The notes below the pieces were generated by a model, which made no database searches, had not been told where the DNA came from, and worked only from the letters and a program-made list of their open reading frames with translations. A program made the translations under genes and the position numbers. Positions 12,164 through 64,000 of a DNA stretch of 64,000 bases are shown piece by piece. Source of the stretch: a virus. Position 1 is the stretch's first letter, and every line of letters begins with the position of its first letter. The stretch covers positions 124,001 to 188,000 of the IMG/VR virus record IMGVR_UViG_3300017917_002466; one strand, given 5' to 3'.

Positions 12164-12260
12164 TATAAATACTGTTGTAGTAGGGAGACAGAGGAGTCGA
12201 CACCTTTTCTCAACCATACTTGAGATTATCCCTACTTAATCTACTTAACCTGTATGGAGG
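12164..12260 (+). promoter_or_regulatory. Late promoter plus pseudoknot leader, copy 1
   Basis: TATAAATA at 12164-12171. Outer stem AGTAGGGA (12179-12186) with TCCCTACT (12229-12236). Inner hairpin TCTCAA, loop CCATAC (12214-12219), TTGAGA. Downstream GTATGG (12252-12257) is the exact complement of the loop and overlaps the GGAGG ribosome site of the gene at 12265. Conserved GGGAGACAG after the 5' strand. Confidence 0.85.
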
Positions 12261-12264
12261 GAAT

Positions 12265-12957
12265 ATGCAAAAACTTTCTAAAGAAGATTTCATTTCCAAG
12301 GCTAATCAAATCCACCAAAATCGTTTTGATTATTCAAAAGTTGAATACTACGATAATAAAACTAAGGTTTGTATTATTTGCAAAGAACATAAAGAGTTCT
12401 ATCAACAACCAAGCAAACATCTTCTTGGTCAAGGTTGTCCAATATGTTCAGACCAAAAATTAACATTAGATAAGTTTATTTCAAAAGCAAATCAAACTCA
12501 TAACTTCTATTACGATTATTCTGAAGTTGTTTATGTTAACTGGAAAACTAAAATTTGTGTGGTATGTCCAGCACACGGAAAGTTCTGGCAAAGACCAGAT
12601 GTTCATTCGTCTGGTCAAGGATGTCCTATATGTAAATCTTCAAAAGGCGAAAAAGAAGTTGAAAAATGTTTAACCAACAAAGGAATTACATTCATTCCAC
12701 AAAAACGATTTGAAGATTGTCGTGGTAAAGTCAAACCTTTACCTTTTGACTTTTACTTACCAGAACATAATATTTGTATTGAATACCAAGGTAAACAACA
12801 CTACCTAAAAGAAAGTAAGTTCTATTCGGAAGAACTTTTACAGAATGATAAAACAAAAGCCCAGTATTGTTTCGATAACAACATTAGGCTTATCGTGATC
12901 CCATATTGGGAAGACGTTTATAAATGTCTACGATTTTTTGGTAGCGAAAGAGGTTGA
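12265..12957 (+). CDS. EDxHD (Vsr-like) homing endonuclease
   Basis: 230 residues. Residues 7-60 and 65-121 are two copies of a DNA-binding zinc repeat (DFISKANQIHQNRFDYSKV, then C-x2-C; DUF723 type). The C-terminal 100 residues carry the restriction-like core FDFYLPEHNICIEYQGKQHY, as in free-standing phage EDxHD homing endonucleases. Start at 12265, behind GGAGG. Lies opposite to all its neighbours and is expressed from the late promoter and pseudoknot leader. All key segments look intact. Confidence 0.88.
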   Translation: MQKLSKEDFISKANQIHQNRFDYSKVEYYDNKTKVCIICKEHKEFYQQPSKHLLGQGCPICSDQKLTLDKFISKANQTHNFYYDYSEVVYVNWKTKICVVCPAHGKFWQRPDVHSSGQGCPICKSSKGEKEVEKCLTNKGITFIPQKRFEDCRGKVKPLPFDFYLPEHNICIEYQGKQHYLKESKFYSEELLQNDKTKAQYCFDNNIRLIVIPYWEDVYKCLRFFGSERG

Positions 12958-24558: not shown

Positions 24559-24657
24559 CATAAATATTTGTAGAAGTTAGGAGACAGCCTCCGGCCGGTG
24601 GTTTCTTTACCGCAATAAAGATTATCTTAACTTCCTTACTTAACCTTTGCGGAGGAG
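24559..24657 (+). promoter_or_regulatory. Late promoter plus pseudoknot leader, copy 2
   Basis: CATAAATA at 24559-24566. Outer stem GAAGTTAGGA (24573-24582) with TCTTAACTTC (24625-24634). Inner hairpin TCTTTA, loop CCGCAA (24610-24615), TAAAGA. Loop partner TTGCGG at 24647-24652 runs into GGAGGAG before the ATG at 24660. Confidence 0.85.
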
Positions 24658-24659
24658 CC

Positions 24660-25343
24660 ATGATTCTTTCTAAAACTGTTCAAGTTAAAATTAGCCGAAG
24701 AAATATTAAACATTATTTGTCTCTTGGTTATGTTATTCCAAAACATACTGATATTTATAATCGCCTTTGTAATCAAATAGGGATTCTAATTGAAGTATCT
24801 ATTGGACATTTACTCAAAGGAAGTAAAGTAAAAGTTCTTTGTAAATGTGACGAATGTGGAAAAGAAAATTTAACTTATTACAACGAATCTCTTAAATTCA
24901 AATATATTTGTAAAAATTGTGCTGCTAACCAACCTAAAAGATTAGAAAAGTTAAAAAATGCTATGACTGGTAAAAAACATTCCGAAGAAACTAAAAAGAA
25001 AATGAGTGAACATAATTGGGCAAAGAATCATACTGGAAAACTACATCCTTGTTACAATTCTAATCTTACTTTTGAAGACCGATATCTAGGTAGAAATAGA
25101 AATGTACAGCCAGAAAATTATCAATGGAAAAAGAAAGTTAAAGAAAGAGATAATCATATTTGCCAAAAATGTGGCTCAAAAGAAAATCTATGCGTTCATC
25201 ATCTTAACAACTATAAATCATTTGAAAACGAAAGGTATGACATTAAAAATGGAATTACCTTATGTGTTGGATGTCATAAGGAATTCCATAAAAGATATGG
25301 TCGTTTAACTACCAAAGAGCAAATAAAGGATTTTATAGGGTAA
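24660..25343 (+). CDS. HNH homing endonuclease with NUMOD-type region
   Basis: 227 residues. A zinc pair near 63-90 (CKCDECGKEN, then CKNC), a NUMOD3-like helix (TGKKHSEETKKKMSEHN) near 102-118, and a C-terminal HNH domain (CQKCGSKENLCVHHLNNY, then GITLCVGCHKEFHKRYGRL). Appears intact. Unrelated in its nuclease fold to the enzyme at 12265, yet it has the same leader. On the strand opposite to its neighbours. Confidence 0.88.
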   Translation: MILSKTVQVKISRRNIKHYLSLGYVIPKHTDIYNRLCNQIGILIEVSIGHLLKGSKVKVLCKCDECGKENLTYYNESLKFKYICKNCAANQPKRLEKLKNAMTGKKHSEETKKKMSEHNWAKNHTGKLHPCYNSNLTFEDRYLGRNRNVQPENYQWKKKVKERDNHICQKCGSKENLCVHHLNNYKSFENERYDIKNGITLCVGCHKEFHKRYGRLTTKEQIKDFIG

Positions 25344-34795: not shown

Positions 34796-34892
34796 TATAA
34801 ATACATATAGAAGTTAAGAGACAGCGACTGATCCTCGTTTCTTTGCTTACCCAAAGATTATCTTAGCTTCCTCACTTAAACTCGGTAAGGAG
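34796..34892 (+). promoter_or_regulatory. Late promoter plus pseudoknot leader, copy 3
   Basis: TATAAATA at 34796-34803. Outer stem GAAGTTAAGA (34810-34819) with TCTTAGCTTC (34861-34870). Inner TCTTTG, loop CTTACC (34846-34851), CAAAGA. Loop partner GGTAAG at 34884-34889 merges with AAGGAG before the ATG at 34899. Confidence 0.85.
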
Positions 34893-34898
34893 TATCTT

Positions 34899-35835: not shown

Positions 35836-35911
35836 TATAAATATATATATGAAGTTAGAAGACAGGGAGTAATTAACCTTTCTTTGCCAATCCAAAGATT
35901 ATTCTGACTTC
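35836..35911 (+). promoter_or_regulatory. Late promoter plus leader, copy 4 (pseudoknot partner lost)
   Basis: TATAAATA at 35836-35843. Outer stem GAAGTTAGAA (35851-35860) with TTCTGACTTC (35902-35911). Inner TCTTTG, loop CCAATC, CAAAGA (35881-35898). The downstream partner and ribosome site are gone; the sequence jumps into the end of an HNH gene. Confidence 0.8.
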
Positions 35912-35916
35912 CTTGT

Positions 35917-43724: not shown

Positions 43725-43732
43725 TATAAATA
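43725..43732 (+). promoter_or_regulatory. Late-type TATAAATA promoter, different leader
   Basis: TATAAATA upstream of the scar at 43786. The leader here is not the common one: a simple hairpin ATTAGG-ATAAA-CCCTAAT, then AAGGAG. Confidence 0.7.
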
Positions 43733-43785
43733 CTATATGAAGAAAAAATTAGGATAAACCCTAATCAAAAAGGAGTCAATTTTAA

Positions 43786-43899
43786 ATGAAAAATTATTCT
43801 ACATCTTTTATAAAAAGATCAAATATTATACATAAAAATAAGTATGAATATTCTGAAATTATTTATATTAATAATAAAACTAAAGTCAAAATATATTGA
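43786..43899 (+). pseudogene. Homing endonuclease, N-terminal scar
   Basis: 37 codons: SFIKRSNIIHKNKYEYSEII, then INNKTKVKIY, the start of a DUF723-type repeat as at 12265, ended early by TGA. Confidence 0.75.
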
Positions 43900-47339: not shown

Positions 47340-47437
47340 CATAAATATTTATAGAAGTTAAGAGACAGCGACTGATCCTCGTTTCTTTGCCAGTACAAAG
47401 ATTATCTTAACTTCATCTACACAAACCGTACTGGAGG
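47340..47437 (+). promoter_or_regulatory. Late promoter plus pseudoknot leader, copy 5
   Basis: CATAAATA at 47340-47347. Outer stem GAAGTTAAGA (47354-47363) with TCTTAACTTC (47405-47414), 10 perfect pairs. Inner TCTTTG, loop CCAGTA (47390-47395), CAAAGA. Loop partner TACTGG at 47429-47434 merges with GGAGG before the ATG at 47442. Confidence 0.85.
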
Positions 47438-47441
47438 TTCT

Positions 47442-50301: not shown

Positions 50302-51126
50302 TTACTCCTTGTCTACATCAACCCATTTCTGAATATAGTTTCTGTCTTGTGTGAAGATAGGAATTTCAGTATCAATAACATATTCTGTTCTTATTGTAGG
50401 ATTTCCAAGTATCTGTAGTCTATCTTCTTTTGATTTAGGAAATCCATCTTTATCATCCAAGTTATATGTGAGTCCATCTTTAATACAAACACTTCTTTTA
50501 TAGACGCAAGTTCCCCTTTTCTTGTGAGTTTCTGTATCATTCCAGTTGATACCTTTCTGTGAGAAAAGCATTTCCTGAATTGCTTCACAAGACTTATGGT
50601 CAAGTTCCTTGTGAGAGAAGTGGGCTCTTCCAACCATCTGAATAGAGTTGCGAGTACAGTCCTGCTGTCTCCAAATTATCACATTAACAACATCATCTTT
50701 CGGAACGTTAAATGCTCTGGCATCAAACAAAGCTGGCTTTTTATCATATCTTTCAGGAAATTTAGCCATAAACTCGTGATTAAAGAAAGCAGTTGCCATT
50801 GAAGCCGCAACAGACTCAACTTTACTTTTACGATAGTCAAACCAAGCACAGGTTTCAATTCTTGTATAATCAGTTAAAAGTAGCGTAATTTCATCGCTTT
50901 GAGTATAACCGAACGAACAACCTTCAATATTCTTTACAAGAGCTTGAGTTGTTCTTTGCATACATTCAATAAGATTATCGTCAAAAGGTCTATTCATTCC
51001 TCTTGTTAAAGTATGAAAAGCGCACCCATCCAAACGAATAATAACTGGTACGCGTCTAGTCAAATATATTTCGGTTGCCTTTTCATATTCTTTACATCTA
51101 TCGCCTAATGATCTTTTGTCTGACAT
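50302..51126 (-). CDS. thg1: tRNA(His) guanylyltransferase-like protein
   Basis: 274 residues from the ATG at 51126 (AAGGAG site). IRLDGCAFHTLTRGMNRPFD (first metal Asp), YTQSDEITLLLTDY (second catalytic S-D-E) and WFDYRKSKVESVAASMATAF are the hallmark blocks of Thg1. The enzyme adds G to the 5' end of tRNA(His), or repairs 5'-truncated tRNA by 3'-5' polymerisation. Probably part of a tRNA-repair set with the neighbouring genes. Confidence 0.92.
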   Translation of the reverse strand: MSDKRSLGDRCKEYEKATEIYLTRRVPVIIRLDGCAFHTLTRGMNRPFDDNLIECMQRTTQALVKNIEGCSFGYTQSDEITLLLTDYTRIETCAWFDYRKSKVESVAASMATAFFNHEFMAKFPERYDKKPALFDARAFNVPKDDVVNVIIWRQQDCTRNSIQMVGRAHFSHKELDHKSCEAIQEMLFSQKGINWNDTETHKKRGTCVYKRSVCIKDGLTYNLDDKDGFPKSKEDRLQILGNPTIRTEYVIDTEIPIFTQDRNYIQKWVDVDKE

Positions 51127-51140
51127 AGATACTCCTTGGT

Positions 51141-51170
51141 AATATAATATGGTCGCGGCTAGTTTGTCAA
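51141..51170 (-). promoter_or_regulatory. Sigma70-like promoter
   Basis: TTGACA / 18 bp / TATATT on the minus strand; the -35 sits in the palindrome GGCTAGTTTGTCAACTAGCC. Confidence 0.65.
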
Positions 51171-51181
51171 CTAGCCACAAC

Positions 51182-52108
51182 CTATTTGGTGAGAAGAGCT
51201 TCCAGTTTGTCAAGACGCTCCCAAACATCTTTAACAGAAATGTACTCTGTAGTCTGTTTTTTCATTCCACTCTCACTACCATACCATTGTTCAATAGCAT
51301 TAGCGAGAAGAACTTTAAGTTCTCCTGTTCTTGGTTGTGGGGAAATTGTGGTTTGATTAAGAGATTTCTTTTCAAGAATATCCAATCTTTCAAGAGCATA
51401 CTTCTCAAACCTTTCCCAAGTTCCCCAAGTACCTTCTCTCATACTTTTGGCTTCTTCTTTATTATTCATCAAATCAATAGTTCCGTTATCCAAAACCTGA
51501 TTGATTTGGTCAATGAGCCTCAATATTTGAGAAGCTTGTTTAACATCCATTCCAAACTGTTCAAGCATAAATTGTCTCTTAGGGTTTTCGGTTTTACCTC
51601 TTTTAATATCATTTCTCATACGATGAAGCTGTGCAAAAGCATAACCCTTAAAAGCCATTACTGTTCTAAGAGATAAAAACTTCTCAGCATTATCTCTTAG
51701 CATCCAAGCAATATCTGTACCAAAGGTAACCAAGTGTCTTCTAACAAAAAGACATTCAATAAGATTTGGTGAACCTTTAATTCCAGTAAGATAAAAAAAT
51801 CTAACTAAACTATTCCACTCTCCTTCAACATCAGTCTTACCATCAGGAGTAAGAATTCTACTTTTTTCTCCTTTGACTTCTTTACTTTCAAAATTGGGAA
51901 CATTATCAAAACCAATTACATATCCGTACTTTTGAGGAAAAAGATGGACTTCTTGTGGCATAACTAATGCGACAATATCAATATCTGATTGCGGAGTATT
52001 AAGTCCATAAGCTTGGCTTCCGACAATACACTCATAAAGTAAATTTTCTCTAATCCAAAGTTCTTGTTTTTGAAATTTTTCTTGAACAAATAAATCCGTG
52101 TAAATCAT
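51182..52108 (-). CDS. RlaP-like nucleotidyltransferase
   Basis: 308 residues. CIVGSQAYGLNTPQSDIDIV (G-S-x-A-x-G...S-D-x-D, residues 29-48) is the pol-beta-type catalytic start of the COG3541/RlaP family (RNA-ligase-associated). PNLIECLFV and the helical C-terminal part also fit. Likely acts on RNA ends. Confidence 0.85.
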   Translation of the reverse strand: MIYTDLFVQEKFQKQELWIRENLLYECIVGSQAYGLNTPQSDIDIVALVMPQEVHLFPQKYGYVIGFDNVPNFESKEVKGEKSRILTPDGKTDVEGEWNSLVRFFYLTGIKGSPNLIECLFVRRHLVTFGTDIAWMLRDNAEKFLSLRTVMAFKGYAFAQLHRMRNDIKRGKTENPKRQFMLEQFGMDVKQASQILRLIDQINQVLDNGTIDLMNNKEEAKSMREGTWGTWERFEKYALERLDILEKKSLNQTTISPQPRTGELKVLLANAIEQWYGSESGMKKQTTEYISVKDVWERLDKLEALLTK

Positions 52109-53988: not shown

Positions 53989-55188
53989 TCACTTCGTGTT
54001 TCCTGCTCCTTCAACACCCAAGTCAAGCGCAAGGTCTTTGGCTGTCTTGGCTGTCAGGAGATTGACAAGTTCATTAGCCCCTGAAGCCGACCTGCTATTA
54101 CCTTCACCCATGACAACAGTCGGAACCCAGTTACCAGCATAACCCTTGATAGCTTCAGCATATGCCTTGTTGATTTCAACAATTGCCTCAATCTTCTGTT
54201 CAAGGGCTCCGTTAGCCTGCATAACAAGCCTCTTATATGATGCCTCACCTTCTCCACGAAGGATGTTTGCACGCTTCTCCTGCTCGGCGGTCTTTGCTTC
54301 AAGTGTAGCAACTTCAAGCTTCTGCTGAGCTTCTGTTACTGCCGTTGCTTTAATTACTTCTTGATCCCACTTTGCCTTGGCTGCATCGGCCTCTCCGTTC
54401 TTGGCAACAGTGATAGCCCTCTGCTCGGCCTTCTTGGCTTCTGCTATGGAAGTTTGAACGTCCATTGTAATCTGTTGCTGTTGCTTAATCTGGTCTTCAA
54501 CAGCCTTGTCATACGGAAGCTGGTCAATCGCAAAGTTGAAGGTACGGATTCCGAAGTCCTTGATGGCTGACTCTTCCTGACGGGCAAGAAGTCCACTACT
54601 ATCTTTGACAATCTCAACCAAAGTTACAGTCTTCTCTGCACCTGTCATTTGGTCATTGGTCTTAACTTCTTTAGAGATAGTCTTGTACACACCATTGGAA
54701 ATCTGGTCTTCTACATATGAGATAAGGTAGTTGCGCTTCTCGGCATAAGACTCCTTGGAACTCATAAGAGGGCCAGTCATATAGATTGCCTTGTTCACAA
54801 TAGTCTGAATCAACTGAGTTTCAAGGGATGCCTGATTACTAAACTTATTCTGAACCTTGGTAAGATAATCCTTATTCAGTGGCATTTCATACTGAACTGA
54901 TCCCATCATTGTTCCGTGTCCACCATCATTGAAACGAACGGAAGTCTTGAACTGATAGATGGAACGCTTCTTGTACTTGGTGACCTTTCCGAAACCTTGC
55001 CACTTGATACCTGCATCGGTATACCAAGCGAGCTTTCCTGCGATGGGTGACTGAATACAAGCGATTTCGTCAGTATCTACGTTCTCAAAGATGTTACCCG
55101 CAAAAGCGATAACAATGATACCGACGACTACGATACTAACGATAGATGCAATTACTCCAACCGGATTGCGCTTCAATTGCTGGGTCAT
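53989..55188 (-). CDS. SPFH/Band 7 membrane protein
   Basis: 399 residues. Membrane helix at 12-32 (IASIVSIVVVGIIVIAFAGN), SPFH domain at about 35-220, and an Ala/Glu/Lys coiled coil (EAKKAEQRAITVAKNGEADA) at 225-330, the prohibitin/flotillin plan. Phage SPFH proteins may scaffold or protect membranes. Coupled to 55192-55422. Confidence 0.88.
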   Translation of the reverse strand: MTQQLKRNPVGVIASIVSIVVVGIIVIAFAGNIFENVDTDEIACIQSPIAGKLAWYTDAGIKWQGFGKVTKYKKRSIYQFKTSVRFNDGGHGTMMGSVQYEMPLNKDYLTKVQNKFSNQASLETQLIQTIVNKAIYMTGPLMSSKESYAEKRNYLISYVEDQISNGVYKTISKEVKTNDQMTGAEKTVTLVEIVKDSSGLLARQEESAIKDFGIRTFNFAIDQLPYDKAVEDQIKQQQQITMDVQTSIAEAKKAEQRAITVAKNGEADAAKAKWDQEVIKATAVTEAQQKLEVATLEAKTAEQEKRANILRGEGEASYKRLVMQANGALEQKIEAIVEINKAYAEAIKGYAGNWVPTVVMGEGNSRSASGANELVNLLTAKTAKDLALDLGVEGAGNTK

Positions 55189-56322: not shown

Positions 56323-57489
56323 TTATATCTTATCTAAGCAACTTTTGAGATAATTAAAATAATCTTGATCTTCTGTCATAGACTTGGAAATATTATTGCT
56401 AAGTTTACAAACAGGTAGTCCATTAACAGAAATCTGCTTACAAACATTTTGTAGTGGCTCAAGTCCAAGATCATTAGATAAATAAGTTCCAATCCCGAAC
56501 ATAGTTTTTATTCTATGATTAAAACGAATAGCTAACTCAAACATCTTTGGAAAATCAAGTCCGTCAGAAAAAATCAATACCTTATTTTTTGGGTTAATTC
56601 CCAAAGCATTATAGTGATTTAGTACCATCTCACCCCAGACTATAGGATCACCAGAGTCGTGCCTCAAACCAGAACTTCTATTAGCAATATCTGGTGATAG
56701 ATCAAGTAACATTTTTTTATCACCTAACGTATCAGACAAAAGAATTCCTAAATCATTTCCATAAAAATCTAACCAAGTTTCAATCGCCATTTTCTGACTG
56801 TTCATAGGATGAGTAAAGGCTTGGAACAAAGTAAAAAACTCGTGTGCCATTGTGCCTATAGGTTTGATATTGAAACGCCTTGCCAAATCCACATCACTAG
56901 TTCCAATAATAACTCCATTATCAGCAAGATTTTTTGTTATGAACTCGTGCCATTCTGTAGTGTACGCTCTCCTACCCCCAAATTCTGCAATCAAAGGAGT
57001 ATAGCCATTCTTGCGTTCAAATTCTTTGAACATCGCAATTTTCTGAACAAGCCTATTTCTACCTTCAGAAATAAGATTATCATTAATAGGATTTACATTC
57101 CTACTATAAACCTCATGTACAATTTTCAAAACAAATATTTCAAATAGACTTACGTTTGTTAATGGTCCTTCCATTTCAATAGCCAAATTCCCATCTTTCT
57201 CACCAACATTAATATAATGCCTTTTGAGTCTGAAATCATCAAGATAGTTTATAAAACATTCACTAAAATAAGGAATAACAGCAAGATATTCAAGTTCATC
57301 ATTAGTAAAATTCAAATCACATAAACAGTCGATCTCATCTTCAATCTCTTTTTTAAATGGTAAGAGATTGATTCCGACATTTCTACACTTGAATTTATAC
57401 TTTGCTAATACATTAGGAAACTTCTGAAAAAAGATATTCAACATCGTCAGTTTGTAATAGTCTTGACTCAATAAACTTTTGATTATCAT
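56323..57489 (-). CDS. pncB: Nicotinate phosphoribosyltransferase
   Basis: 388 residues, near the bacterial PncB length. LLSQDYYKLTMLNIFFQKFP start, EFGGRRAYTTEWHEF, GTSDVDLARRFNIKPIGTMA (catalytic His region AHEFF), SGLRHDSGDPIVWGE and FSDGLD are signature PncB blocks; nicotinamide phosphoribosyltransferases lack this pattern. Makes nicotinate mononucleotide from nicotinate and PRPP. Second step of the NAD block, with PncA (62145), NadD (60408) and NadE (61345). Own promoter 57572-57600. Confidence 0.9.
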   Translation of the reverse strand: MIIKSLLSQDYYKLTMLNIFFQKFPNVLAKYKFKCRNVGINLLPFKKEIEDEIDCLCDLNFTNDELEYLAVIPYFSECFINYLDDFRLKRHYINVGEKDGNLAIEMEGPLTNVSLFEIFVLKIVHEVYSRNVNPINDNLISEGRNRLVQKIAMFKEFERKNGYTPLIAEFGGRRAYTTEWHEFITKNLADNGVIIGTSDVDLARRFNIKPIGTMAHEFFTLFQAFTHPMNSQKMAIETWLDFYGNDLGILLSDTLGDKKMLLDLSPDIANRSSGLRHDSGDPIVWGEMVLNHYNALGINPKNKVLIFSDGLDFPKMFELAIRFNHRIKTMFGIGTYLSNDLGLEPLQNVCKQISVNGLPVCKLSNNISKSMTEDQDYFNYLKSCLDKI

Positions 57490-61344: not shown

Positions 61345-62127
61345 TTATGTCTTATTAAGTTTACAGATTGGTGGCATATTCATTTTATGAAAACTATTAT
61401 TATGTCTCTTAACATAAATTGTTAAAATTTCTTTTTGTCTATCTGTTAATTCTATAAACATTCTTTCATAAACTTTTACTGGCAAATATGAATACTTTTC
61501 ATAATATTCCATTGCCCATTCAAGTTCAGGATAAGTTGCACCTATCTGATCTTCATCCGAACGATCATCTTCCCATAATCCGTCTGTAGGTTTTGCTTCA
61601 ACAATCTCTTTATTAATATCAAAATGTTTAGACAAATCCCATACTTCAGTCTTCAATAAATCACCAATTGGACTAATATCAACTCCACCATCTCCATACT
61701 TTGTAAAAAAACCTACACCAAAATCTTCAACTTTATTTCCAGTACCAGCTACAACATACCCATAACTATTAGCAAAGTTATACAAAGTCACCATTCTTAA
61801 ACGCGATCTGGCATTTACTAAAGCTAAATCTGAAATTGCATCAAATGGAATACTTTTTTTCCATACTTCAAAAGTTTCCGTCAAATCAACCTCAAAAGAA
61901 GTAACATTCGTAAAATTCCTTTTCAACCAATTCATATGGTTATGGGCTCTATCTAAATGAGATTTTGGTTGATGAATTGGCATTGAAACAACAATAACGG
62001 GTTTTTTAGTTTTAGCACAAAGAGTACTAACTAATGCAGAGTCAACCCCACCACTAATACCAATAACAAAACCATTGTAACTCTGTAGCCAATTAACAAT
62101 TTGTTTTTCAACTTTAATGCAGTCCAT
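61345..62127 (-). CDS. nadE: NAD synthetase, ammonia-type
   Basis: 260 residues. GISGGVDSALVSTLCA is the P-loop of ATP pyrophosphatases (S-G-G-x-D-S). NARSRLRMVTLYNFAN, VAGTGNKVEDFGVGFFTKYG and DGGVDISPIGDLLKTEVW are the NadE signatures. No glutaminase domain, so it would use ammonia. Final step to NAD. Confidence 0.93.
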   Translation of the reverse strand: MDCIKVEKQIVNWLQSYNGFVIGISGGVDSALVSTLCAKTKKPVIVVSMPIHQPKSHLDRAHNHMNWLKRNFTNVTSFEVDLTETFEVWKKSIPFDAISDLALVNARSRLRMVTLYNFANSYGYVVAGTGNKVEDFGVGFFTKYGDGGVDISPIGDLLKTEVWDLSKHFDINKEIVEAKPTDGLWEDDRSDEDQIGATYPELEWAMEYYEKYSYLPVKVYERMFIELTDRQKEILTIYVKRHNNSFHKMNMPPICKLNKT

Positions 62128-62741: not shown

Positions 62742-62838
62742 TATAAATACCTTTAGAAGTTGGGAGACAAGGGCCGTACACCTTTTTCTTGCCAATCCAA
62801 GAATTACCTCAACTTCCTTACTTATACCTGATTGGAGA
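62742..62838 (+). promoter_or_regulatory. Late promoter plus pseudoknot leader, copy 6
   Basis: TATAAATA at 62742-62749. Outer stem GAAGTTGGG (62756-62764) with CTCAACTTC (62808-62816), including one G-T pair. Inner TTCTTG, loop CCAATC (62792-62797), CAAGAA (a paired change from TCTTTG/CAAAGA). Loop partner GATTGG at 62830-62835 merges with GGAGAG. Confidence 0.85.
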
Positions 62839-63552: not shown

Positions 63553-63650
63553 TATAAATACAAGTAGAAGTTAAAAGACAGCGTAGGCATACGTTTCTTT
63601 GCTCACTCAAAGATTATTTTAACTTCACTAACATAAACCTAGTGAGAGGT
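63553..63650 (+). promoter_or_regulatory. Late promoter plus pseudoknot leader, copy 7
   Basis: TATAAATA at 63553-63560. Outer stem GAAGTTAAAA (63567-63576) with TTTTAACTTC (63617-63626), a paired change from AAGA/TCTT. Extra hairpin CGTA-GGCA-TACG. Inner TCTTTG, loop CTCACT (63602-63607), CAAAGA. Loop partner AGTGAG at 63641-63646 merges with GAGAGG before the ATG at 63657. Confidence 0.85.
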
Positions 63651-63656
63651 ATATCT

Positions 63657-64000
63657 ATGCGTCCTAAAATTATCAAAGATGAATTTATCCAGAAAGCTAA
63701 TTTTATTCATAATAATAAATTTAATTATGATTTAGTTGTTTTTAACAACGCAAATGATAAAATAACTATCAAATGTAATGATTGTCAAAATATATTTATT
63801 CAAAGATTAAGTTCACACATAGAAAAAAATCACCCTAAAGGATGCCCAAATTGTGCAATAAAACAACAATCCAATGTTCGTTTATATAAAGCATCAAACA
63901 AATTTCATAAAACTATTCAAATTAAACAACCAGATATTGATTTTTCAAAAGATACTTATAGTGGTTGGAATAAGCCTTATAAATGTATTTGTAAAAAATG
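63657..64000 (+). CDS. DUF723-type homing endonuclease, cut by window edge
   Basis: First 114 codons, still open at the end of the window. EFIQKANFIHNNKFNYDLVV, C-x2-C (CNDCQN) and GCPNCAIKQQ form one zinc repeat like those of 12265-12957, and a second unit begins (HKTIQIKQPDIDFSKDTYSG). Preceded by leader copy 7. Confidence 0.85.
   Translation, partial: MRPKIIKDEFIQKANFIHNNKFNYDLVVFNNANDKITIKCNDCQNIFIQRLSSHIEKNHPKGCPNCAIKQQSNVRLYKASNKFHKTIQIKQPDIDFSKDTYSGWNKPYKCICKK

Follow-up and report, generated by a model that had tools for sequence, protein, structure and literature searches.

A kissing-loop leader RNA as a candidate translational lock on unrelated homing endonuclease genes of phages

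Homing endonucleases are selfish genes that need timed expression. Here we describe a structured RNA leader that recurs upstream of such genes in a 64,000-nt stretch of viral DNA (the window; bases 124,001-188,000 of G000, the 253,664-nt phage record IMGVR_UViG_3300017917_002466), where it would form a cis-regulatory RNA of ~90 nt at the 5' end of late homing endonuclease transcripts. The predicted fold is a three-way junction of helices P1, P2 and P3, followed by a hairpin, P5, in which the Shine-Dalgarno (SD) sequence of the downstream gene forms the 3' strand; the loop of P3 (L3) is complementary to the loop of P5. Comparison of the leader copies shows the predicted P1, P2, P3 and L3-L5 pairing and, with modelled energies added, we strongly infer that the SD is sequestered. 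Our best reading, held at a probability of roughly 0.72, is that the leader is a riboswitch-like translational lock on the late transcript, common to unrelated homing endonucleases.

The first-pass annotation of the window had described seven plus-strand leaders with a common promoter box and the motif GACAG. All seven are present, with two corrections: the box reads TATAAATA in five and CATAAATA in the copies at 24559 and 47340, and GACAG occurs in six, the copy at 62742 having GACAA. Each of the six quoted pairs of loop and downstream 6-mer is exact in the window sequence, with the 6-mer ending in the SD. The copy at 35836 keeps P1-P3 intact but has lost the 6-mer and the gene start, so that six of the seven window copies test the pairing. 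The copies at 34796 and 47340 are identical over ~41 nt up to the loop; their loops differ, and each pairs with its own 6-mer.

Pattern scans of IMG/VR first recovered the same element in further records. Twenty-one leaders were used to build a covariance model (R1) that contained only P1, P2 and P3; because the kissing pairs were left out, the copies that it found test the loop/6-mer pairing blind. R1 detected 17 leader copies in G000 (E-values 1e-18 to 6e-8), eight in a 223,879-nt record (G004) and more in smaller records, and all complete copies found in this way keep the kissing pair, which in some is 7 nt long. A second model of this type (R2), to which P5 was added with the kissing pairs still left out, yielded more copies when used with two extra pattern scans, and again all complete ones kept the pairing. 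In total 58 leaders were gathered from G000 and other IMG/VR records; since the scans were pattern-seeded, the family is larger than this collection. Further copies in which loop and 6-mer do not match, named beforehand as the outcome that would speak against the pairing, were sought, and none was seen among the ~35 complete and distinct copies that the seed alignment did not include.

Of the 54 complete leaders that are non-redundant, 53 (98%) have an exact complement of the P3 loop, 6-8 nt long, downstream; the single leader below 6 nt (L313) has five pairs and a G-U. When loops and downstream parts were exchanged between leaders, a match of at least 6 nt arose in 2.2% of 2826 pairs. A chance origin of the loop/6-mer match is excluded. 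Among the copies that fail the pairing test, L499 breaks off where its contig ends, and the truncated L294, like the window copy at 35836, runs into the C-terminal remnant of an endonuclease; the real exceptions are two decayed copies that have lost their 3' half. Leaders fused straight to C-terminal endonuclease remnants lie at 35836-35914 of the window and at G000:C1:27098-27174, and both look as if an internal deletion had removed the leader's 3' half and the gene start. The idea that the kissing pairs are orthogonal within one genome was rejected, because an identical loop recurs in one contig.

The pairing was also tested by covariation in an alignment of 37 distinct leaders (A3). Both sides change in 27 of its 29 pairs and 86% of cells are paired, giving a covariation score of 0.598 against 0.230 in shuffled alignments (reached in 0/500 shuffles); slid controls did not exceed 0.19. 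For the loop/6-mer helix alone the score was 0.729 against 0.216 shuffled (0/500), and all 10 pairs of P1 covary. Many leader copies are related by descent, which inflates the shuffle control; the slid controls retain this relatedness, yet score far lower. Paired changes had been reported in the outer and inner stems, and P1, P2 and P3 indeed covary strongly. Around the three-way junction the unpaired GACAG, UU and UUA are nearly invariant, with GACAG in 55 of the 58 leaders and ATTA in all.

P5, which is absent from the first-pass description, has the form ACCU[NNNNGG]AGGU: the 6-mer, flanked by ACCU and AGGU, forms the loop of a hairpin of 2-6 bp in which the SD is the 3' strand. With the 6-mer in its loop and the SD in its stem, the two pairings would together make a kissing-loop lock over the whole SD. 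The earlier claim of a near-certain pseudoknot thus stands as to the long-range pairing, upheld by covariation, blind copies and swaps, but the structure is better named a cis kissing-loop complex. Compensatory changes in P5 include ACUC/GAGU in the copy at 34796 and in L567, UUCUC/GAGAA in L289, UUCU/AGAA in L497, AUCU/AGAU in L536, GCCU/AGGC in L309 and UCCU/AGGA in L305. Several observations weigh against a lock of this kind. The covariation of P5 is weaker, being reached by 1/500 shuffles, with 83.8% of cells paired against 78.1% shuffled; as the SD is conserved, P5 is mostly invariant and its statistical support is moderate. The hairpin is also short, with only 2 bp in the copy at 62742 and in L596. 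Moreover, other treble-clef endonucleases of the same phage have TATAAATAC and a short plain leader, which shows that the lock is not obligatory.

With ViennaRNA parameters, mean energies were -2.2 kcal/mol for P5, -6.3 kcal/mol for the kissing duplex and -9.6 kcal/mol for the SD with the 16S anti-SD. By these values the ribosome would outcompete P5 alone, and P5 plus the kissing duplex would nearly match the ribosome, leaving the states close to balanced. A poised lock fits these energies, which do not prove it; the suggestion that the ribosome site is hidden finds its support in pairing and energies. The same closeness of lock and SD-antiSD energies would lead one to expect partial leakiness, as in a fold that answers to no signal and holds nuclease translation at a tolerable constant level, being opened by ribosomes or thermal breathing. 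There is precedent in the plain hairpins that sequester the ribosome-binding site (RBS) and hold T4 and Aeh1 homing endonucleases low (PMC2988022). A plain hairpin would suffice for such damping, however, and would not need a near-invariant junction across gene families; we regard it as possible but doubtful.

The box TATAAATA or a close variant stands ahead of 51 of the 58 leaders, in most cases at a distance of 12-18 nt from GACAG; it is missing from seven (L298, L316, L319, L497, L536, L596 and L157), which shows that the RNA can occur without it. Profile phrog_234, picked via T4 gene 55 to represent the late sigma factor, matched G000 (E 2e-27) and G004 (E 3.5e-26), and no match was obtained in the smaller leader-bearing records. 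A gp55-like sigma in both large records, together with the placement of the box, supports the late promoter proposed in the first-pass annotation, making it a sound reading there. The gp55-like gene of G000 lies at G000:C1:50985-51284 in a 140-aa frame, with profile positions 4-111 matched only. Directly after it comes a treble-clef homing endonuclease ORF (open reading frame; G000:C1:51434-51994), possibly located within or next to the sigma gene.

With start sites spaced as in T4, the transcript would start at the first nucleotide of P1 or at one adjacent to it. A helix near the expected transcript start, as the usual distance between box and GACAG implies, could serve mRNA protection, the folded SD keeping RNase E or a RegB-like nuclease off GGAG, the sequence that T4 RegB is annotated to cut, with translation control secondary. 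For protection, an SD hairpin would be superfluous and the kissing partner would not have to end in the SD throughout the copies; we consider this reading very unlikely. The promoter also bears on another possibility, in which only read-through transcripts are silenced. T4 I-TevI, segB and Aeh1 mobE have a late promoter beside an RBS hairpin; the late transcript of I-TevI is made without the inhibitory 5' strand, and the arrangement in the other two is similar (PMC2988022). Late transcripts would likewise escape here, but in most copies the whole structure follows the promoter, so that these transcripts carry all of the leader, and such a switch has hardly any likelihood.

P2 itself covaries, and its loop holds a palindrome 6 nt or longer in 21 of 48 distinct P2s; shuffled sequences gave 2.9, and never more than 10 in 5000 shuffles. 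At least nine different palindromes occur (GUCGAC, UUCGAA, UAGCUA, UUGCAA, UCAUGA, UAAUUA, UGAUCA, UUAUAA and CCGGCCGG), and in 17 P2s there is a mismatch between palindrome and stem. The palindromic kissing loop of the HIV-1 DIS is alike in its short stem, its 6-nt loop palindrome and its mismatch before the stem (~1/3 of P2s), and unlike in that the P2 palindrome is not universal, dimerisation is putative and the function is different. These sequences suggest that RNA dimerisation is possible, and their excess would suit a concentration sensor in which two leader RNAs kiss through P2, altering the junction and the SD lock. Yet the loop is compact and non-palindromic (GGCA, GACG, UCAUU, UCGCA) in roughly half of the P2s, and dimers would be disfavoured by low mRNA concentration, which renders a sensor rather improbable. 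Given the many small non-palindromic loops, the palindromes are kept as an unexplained feature and as a rival mechanism. It is also unlikely, in our estimation, that the leader is a riboswitch-like RNA class on mobile, unrelated endonucleases in which the kissing SD lock and palindromic P2 pairing act together, with translation following a late-infection signal or the abundance of its own mRNA.

To survey the genes served by the leader, we took 42 ORFs of at least 80 codons downstream of leaders. The homing endonuclease profile phrog_314 matched 20 of them and phrog_559 matched 14, and the Pfam counts were NUMOD3 16, DUF4379 12, DUF723 9, SegE GIY-YIG 7, GIY-YIG 5, LEM-3 GIY-YIG 3 and HNH 2. 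The gene of L596 matched LAGLIDADG_3 above the curated cut-off, the sole LAGLIDADG case, and that of L536 matched DUF3223 only. Behind 16 leaders the ORF is short, decayed or lost, as is expected of homing endonuclease genes. On these profile matches, the predicted homing endonucleases behind the leader come from four or more unrelated families: treble-clef (DUF4379/DUF723), GIY-YIG, HNH and, in one case, LAGLIDADG. The first-pass annotation makes no mention of the nature of these genes, which we regard as the foremost biological clue. An RNA-guided nuclease reading was rejected: no guide-like variable segment was seen outside the paired regions, and the downstream folds are unrelated.

Beyond the leader-bearing records, none of 97 loci with relatives of the endonucleases (P0001-like or GIY-YIG) gave a leader match above 20 bits, which confines the leader to a subset of phages. 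A loose pattern found 119 loci in bacterial genomes, and among the 100 of them scanned with the model no score exceeded about 23 bits. In isolate and named phages blastn gave no leader match, the endonuclease coding part alone matching T4-like segB genes. No convincing match came from model searches of T4 (no leader hit with R2), GAP32, KP13-7, Lak-B4, Munch and several huge phages, run under stricter filters with which weak matches can be lost. Judged by these searches, the leader is a module of some predicted homing endonuclease genes in some phages. A candidate at a patatin gene (L329, 22.5 bits) had no kissing pair, was missed by R2 and was treated as chance.

Features of the window are collected in Table 1. 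In addition, a treble-clef endonuclease start at 43725-43790 has TATAAATA and a simple hairpin, AUUAGGauaaaCCUAAU, before the SD, with no kissing leader; its ORF appears to end early. Other genes of the window encode a tRNA-His guanylyltransferase (50302-51228), a nicotinamide phosphoribosyltransferase-like protein (56323-57489), an NAD synthetase (61345-62127) and an SPFH/band-7-type protein (53989-55188). The last shares 53% identity with a protein of this type from LR756500.1, a 462-kb uncultured phage that may therefore be the nearest named relative.

Table 1. Leader copies, leader elements and associated genes in the window
Positions	Strand	Feature	Basis or remark
12164-12260	+	Leader copy 1	Promoter box, P1, GACAG, P2, P3, UUA, P1 strand, linker, P5; ATG at 12265
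12164-12171	+	T4-type late promoter box TATAAATA	Sequence; gp55-like late sigma factor in same record
12179-12236	+	P1, outer stem around three-way junction (12179-12186 with 12229-12236)	Sequence, covariation
12187-12191	+	J1/2 motif GACAG	55/58 copies
12192-12205	+	P2 hairpin AGG[AGUCGACA]CCU	Covariation, palindrome count; loop palindromic in this copy
12208-12225	+	P3 hairpin UCUCAA[CCAUAC]UUGAGA; loop L3 is 5' half of kissing interaction	Covariation
12226-12228	+	J3/1 UUA	ATTA in every copy
12249-12260	+	P5 SD hairpin CCU[GUAUGG]AGG; GUAUGG kisses L3, 3' strand is SD AGG	Covariation, energies
12265-12957	+	Treble-clef (DUF4379/DUF723-type) homing endonuclease gene, 230 aa	
24559-24656	+	Leader copy 2: CATAAATA, CCGCAA/UUGCGG	
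24660-25343	+	HNH/NUMOD3 homing endonuclease gene under copy 2	
34796-34893	+	Leader copy 3: CUUACC/GGUAAG, P5 ACUC/GAGU	Treble-clef homing endonuclease start; ORF broken further downstream
35836-35914	+	Truncated leader: P1-P3 only, L3 CCAAUC	Joined to HNH-type remnant
47340-47438	+	Leader copy: CATAAATA, CCAGUA/UACUGG	Decayed HNH-type gene of 15 codons
62742-62839	+	Leader copy: CCAAUC/GAUUGG	Decayed gene
63553-63650	+	Leader copy: CUCACU/AGUGAG	
63657-64000	+	Treble-clef homing endonuclease gene	Continues past window end

In the translational lock that we favour, L3 would kiss the P5 loop, so that the kissing helix and the stem of P5 would both hold the SD and shut ribosomes out, with translation repressed while the complex is closed. 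More speculatively, the conserved junction may be the receptor for a common signal by which the lock is opened or tightened, be it a metabolite, an ion or a protein of the phage or the host. The conservation of this junction across copies before unrelated genes suggests such a receptor, or the site of a common RNA-binding protein. The nuclease itself is an unlikely signal, given that four or more unrelated families are represented among the genes downstream. The leader is therefore probably best pictured, on comparative grounds, as a portable switch timing the translation of homing genes. The T4 precedent consists of simple hairpins at a few homing endonuclease genes; here one elaborate fold is found on at least four families, with 17 copies in one phage, which suggests that the regulator itself is a portable module that rival selfish genes have adopted, with giant phages offering a common signal which such genes read. 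Since loop and partner appear freely exchangeable if matched, the lock should be easy to test and might be useful as an engineered translational lock.

No gathering-level hit to Rfam 15 was found in the window and no credible sub-threshold hit over the leaders, the cobalamin model included, and we found no description of the leader in the literature covered (open-licence papers, with a 2017 survey of 224 candidate RNAs checked through Rfam only). With no Rfam match and the full structure on the late transcript, the leader belongs to neither the cobalamin nor the I-TevI class. With I-TevI, I-TevII, I-TevIII, segB and Aeh1 mobE it has in common a T4-type late promoter by a homing endonuclease gene and a structure over the ribosome site (PMC2988022), formed here by the L3/6-mer pairing and P5. 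Unlike those hairpins, it is a conserved three-way junction with a kissing loop, common to unrelated endonucleases, and its promoter box stands upstream of the complete structure. The T4 gene 32 leader pseudoknot is likewise a phage 5' leader pairing, which lies upstream of the ribosome site, nucleates gp32 binding and controls translation (PMC3014915), whereas the pairing described here takes in the SD itself. In translational cobalamin riboswitches, the receptor-domain loop L5 kisses L13 of the RBS hairpin, stabilising the closed state (PMC10653944); size, junction and sequence differ from those of our leader, and its genes are unrelated to B12. By analogy, the regulatory logic of the leader appears closest to the kissing loop of the cobalamin riboswitch, and its setting closest to the control of I-TevI, segB and Aeh1 mobE.
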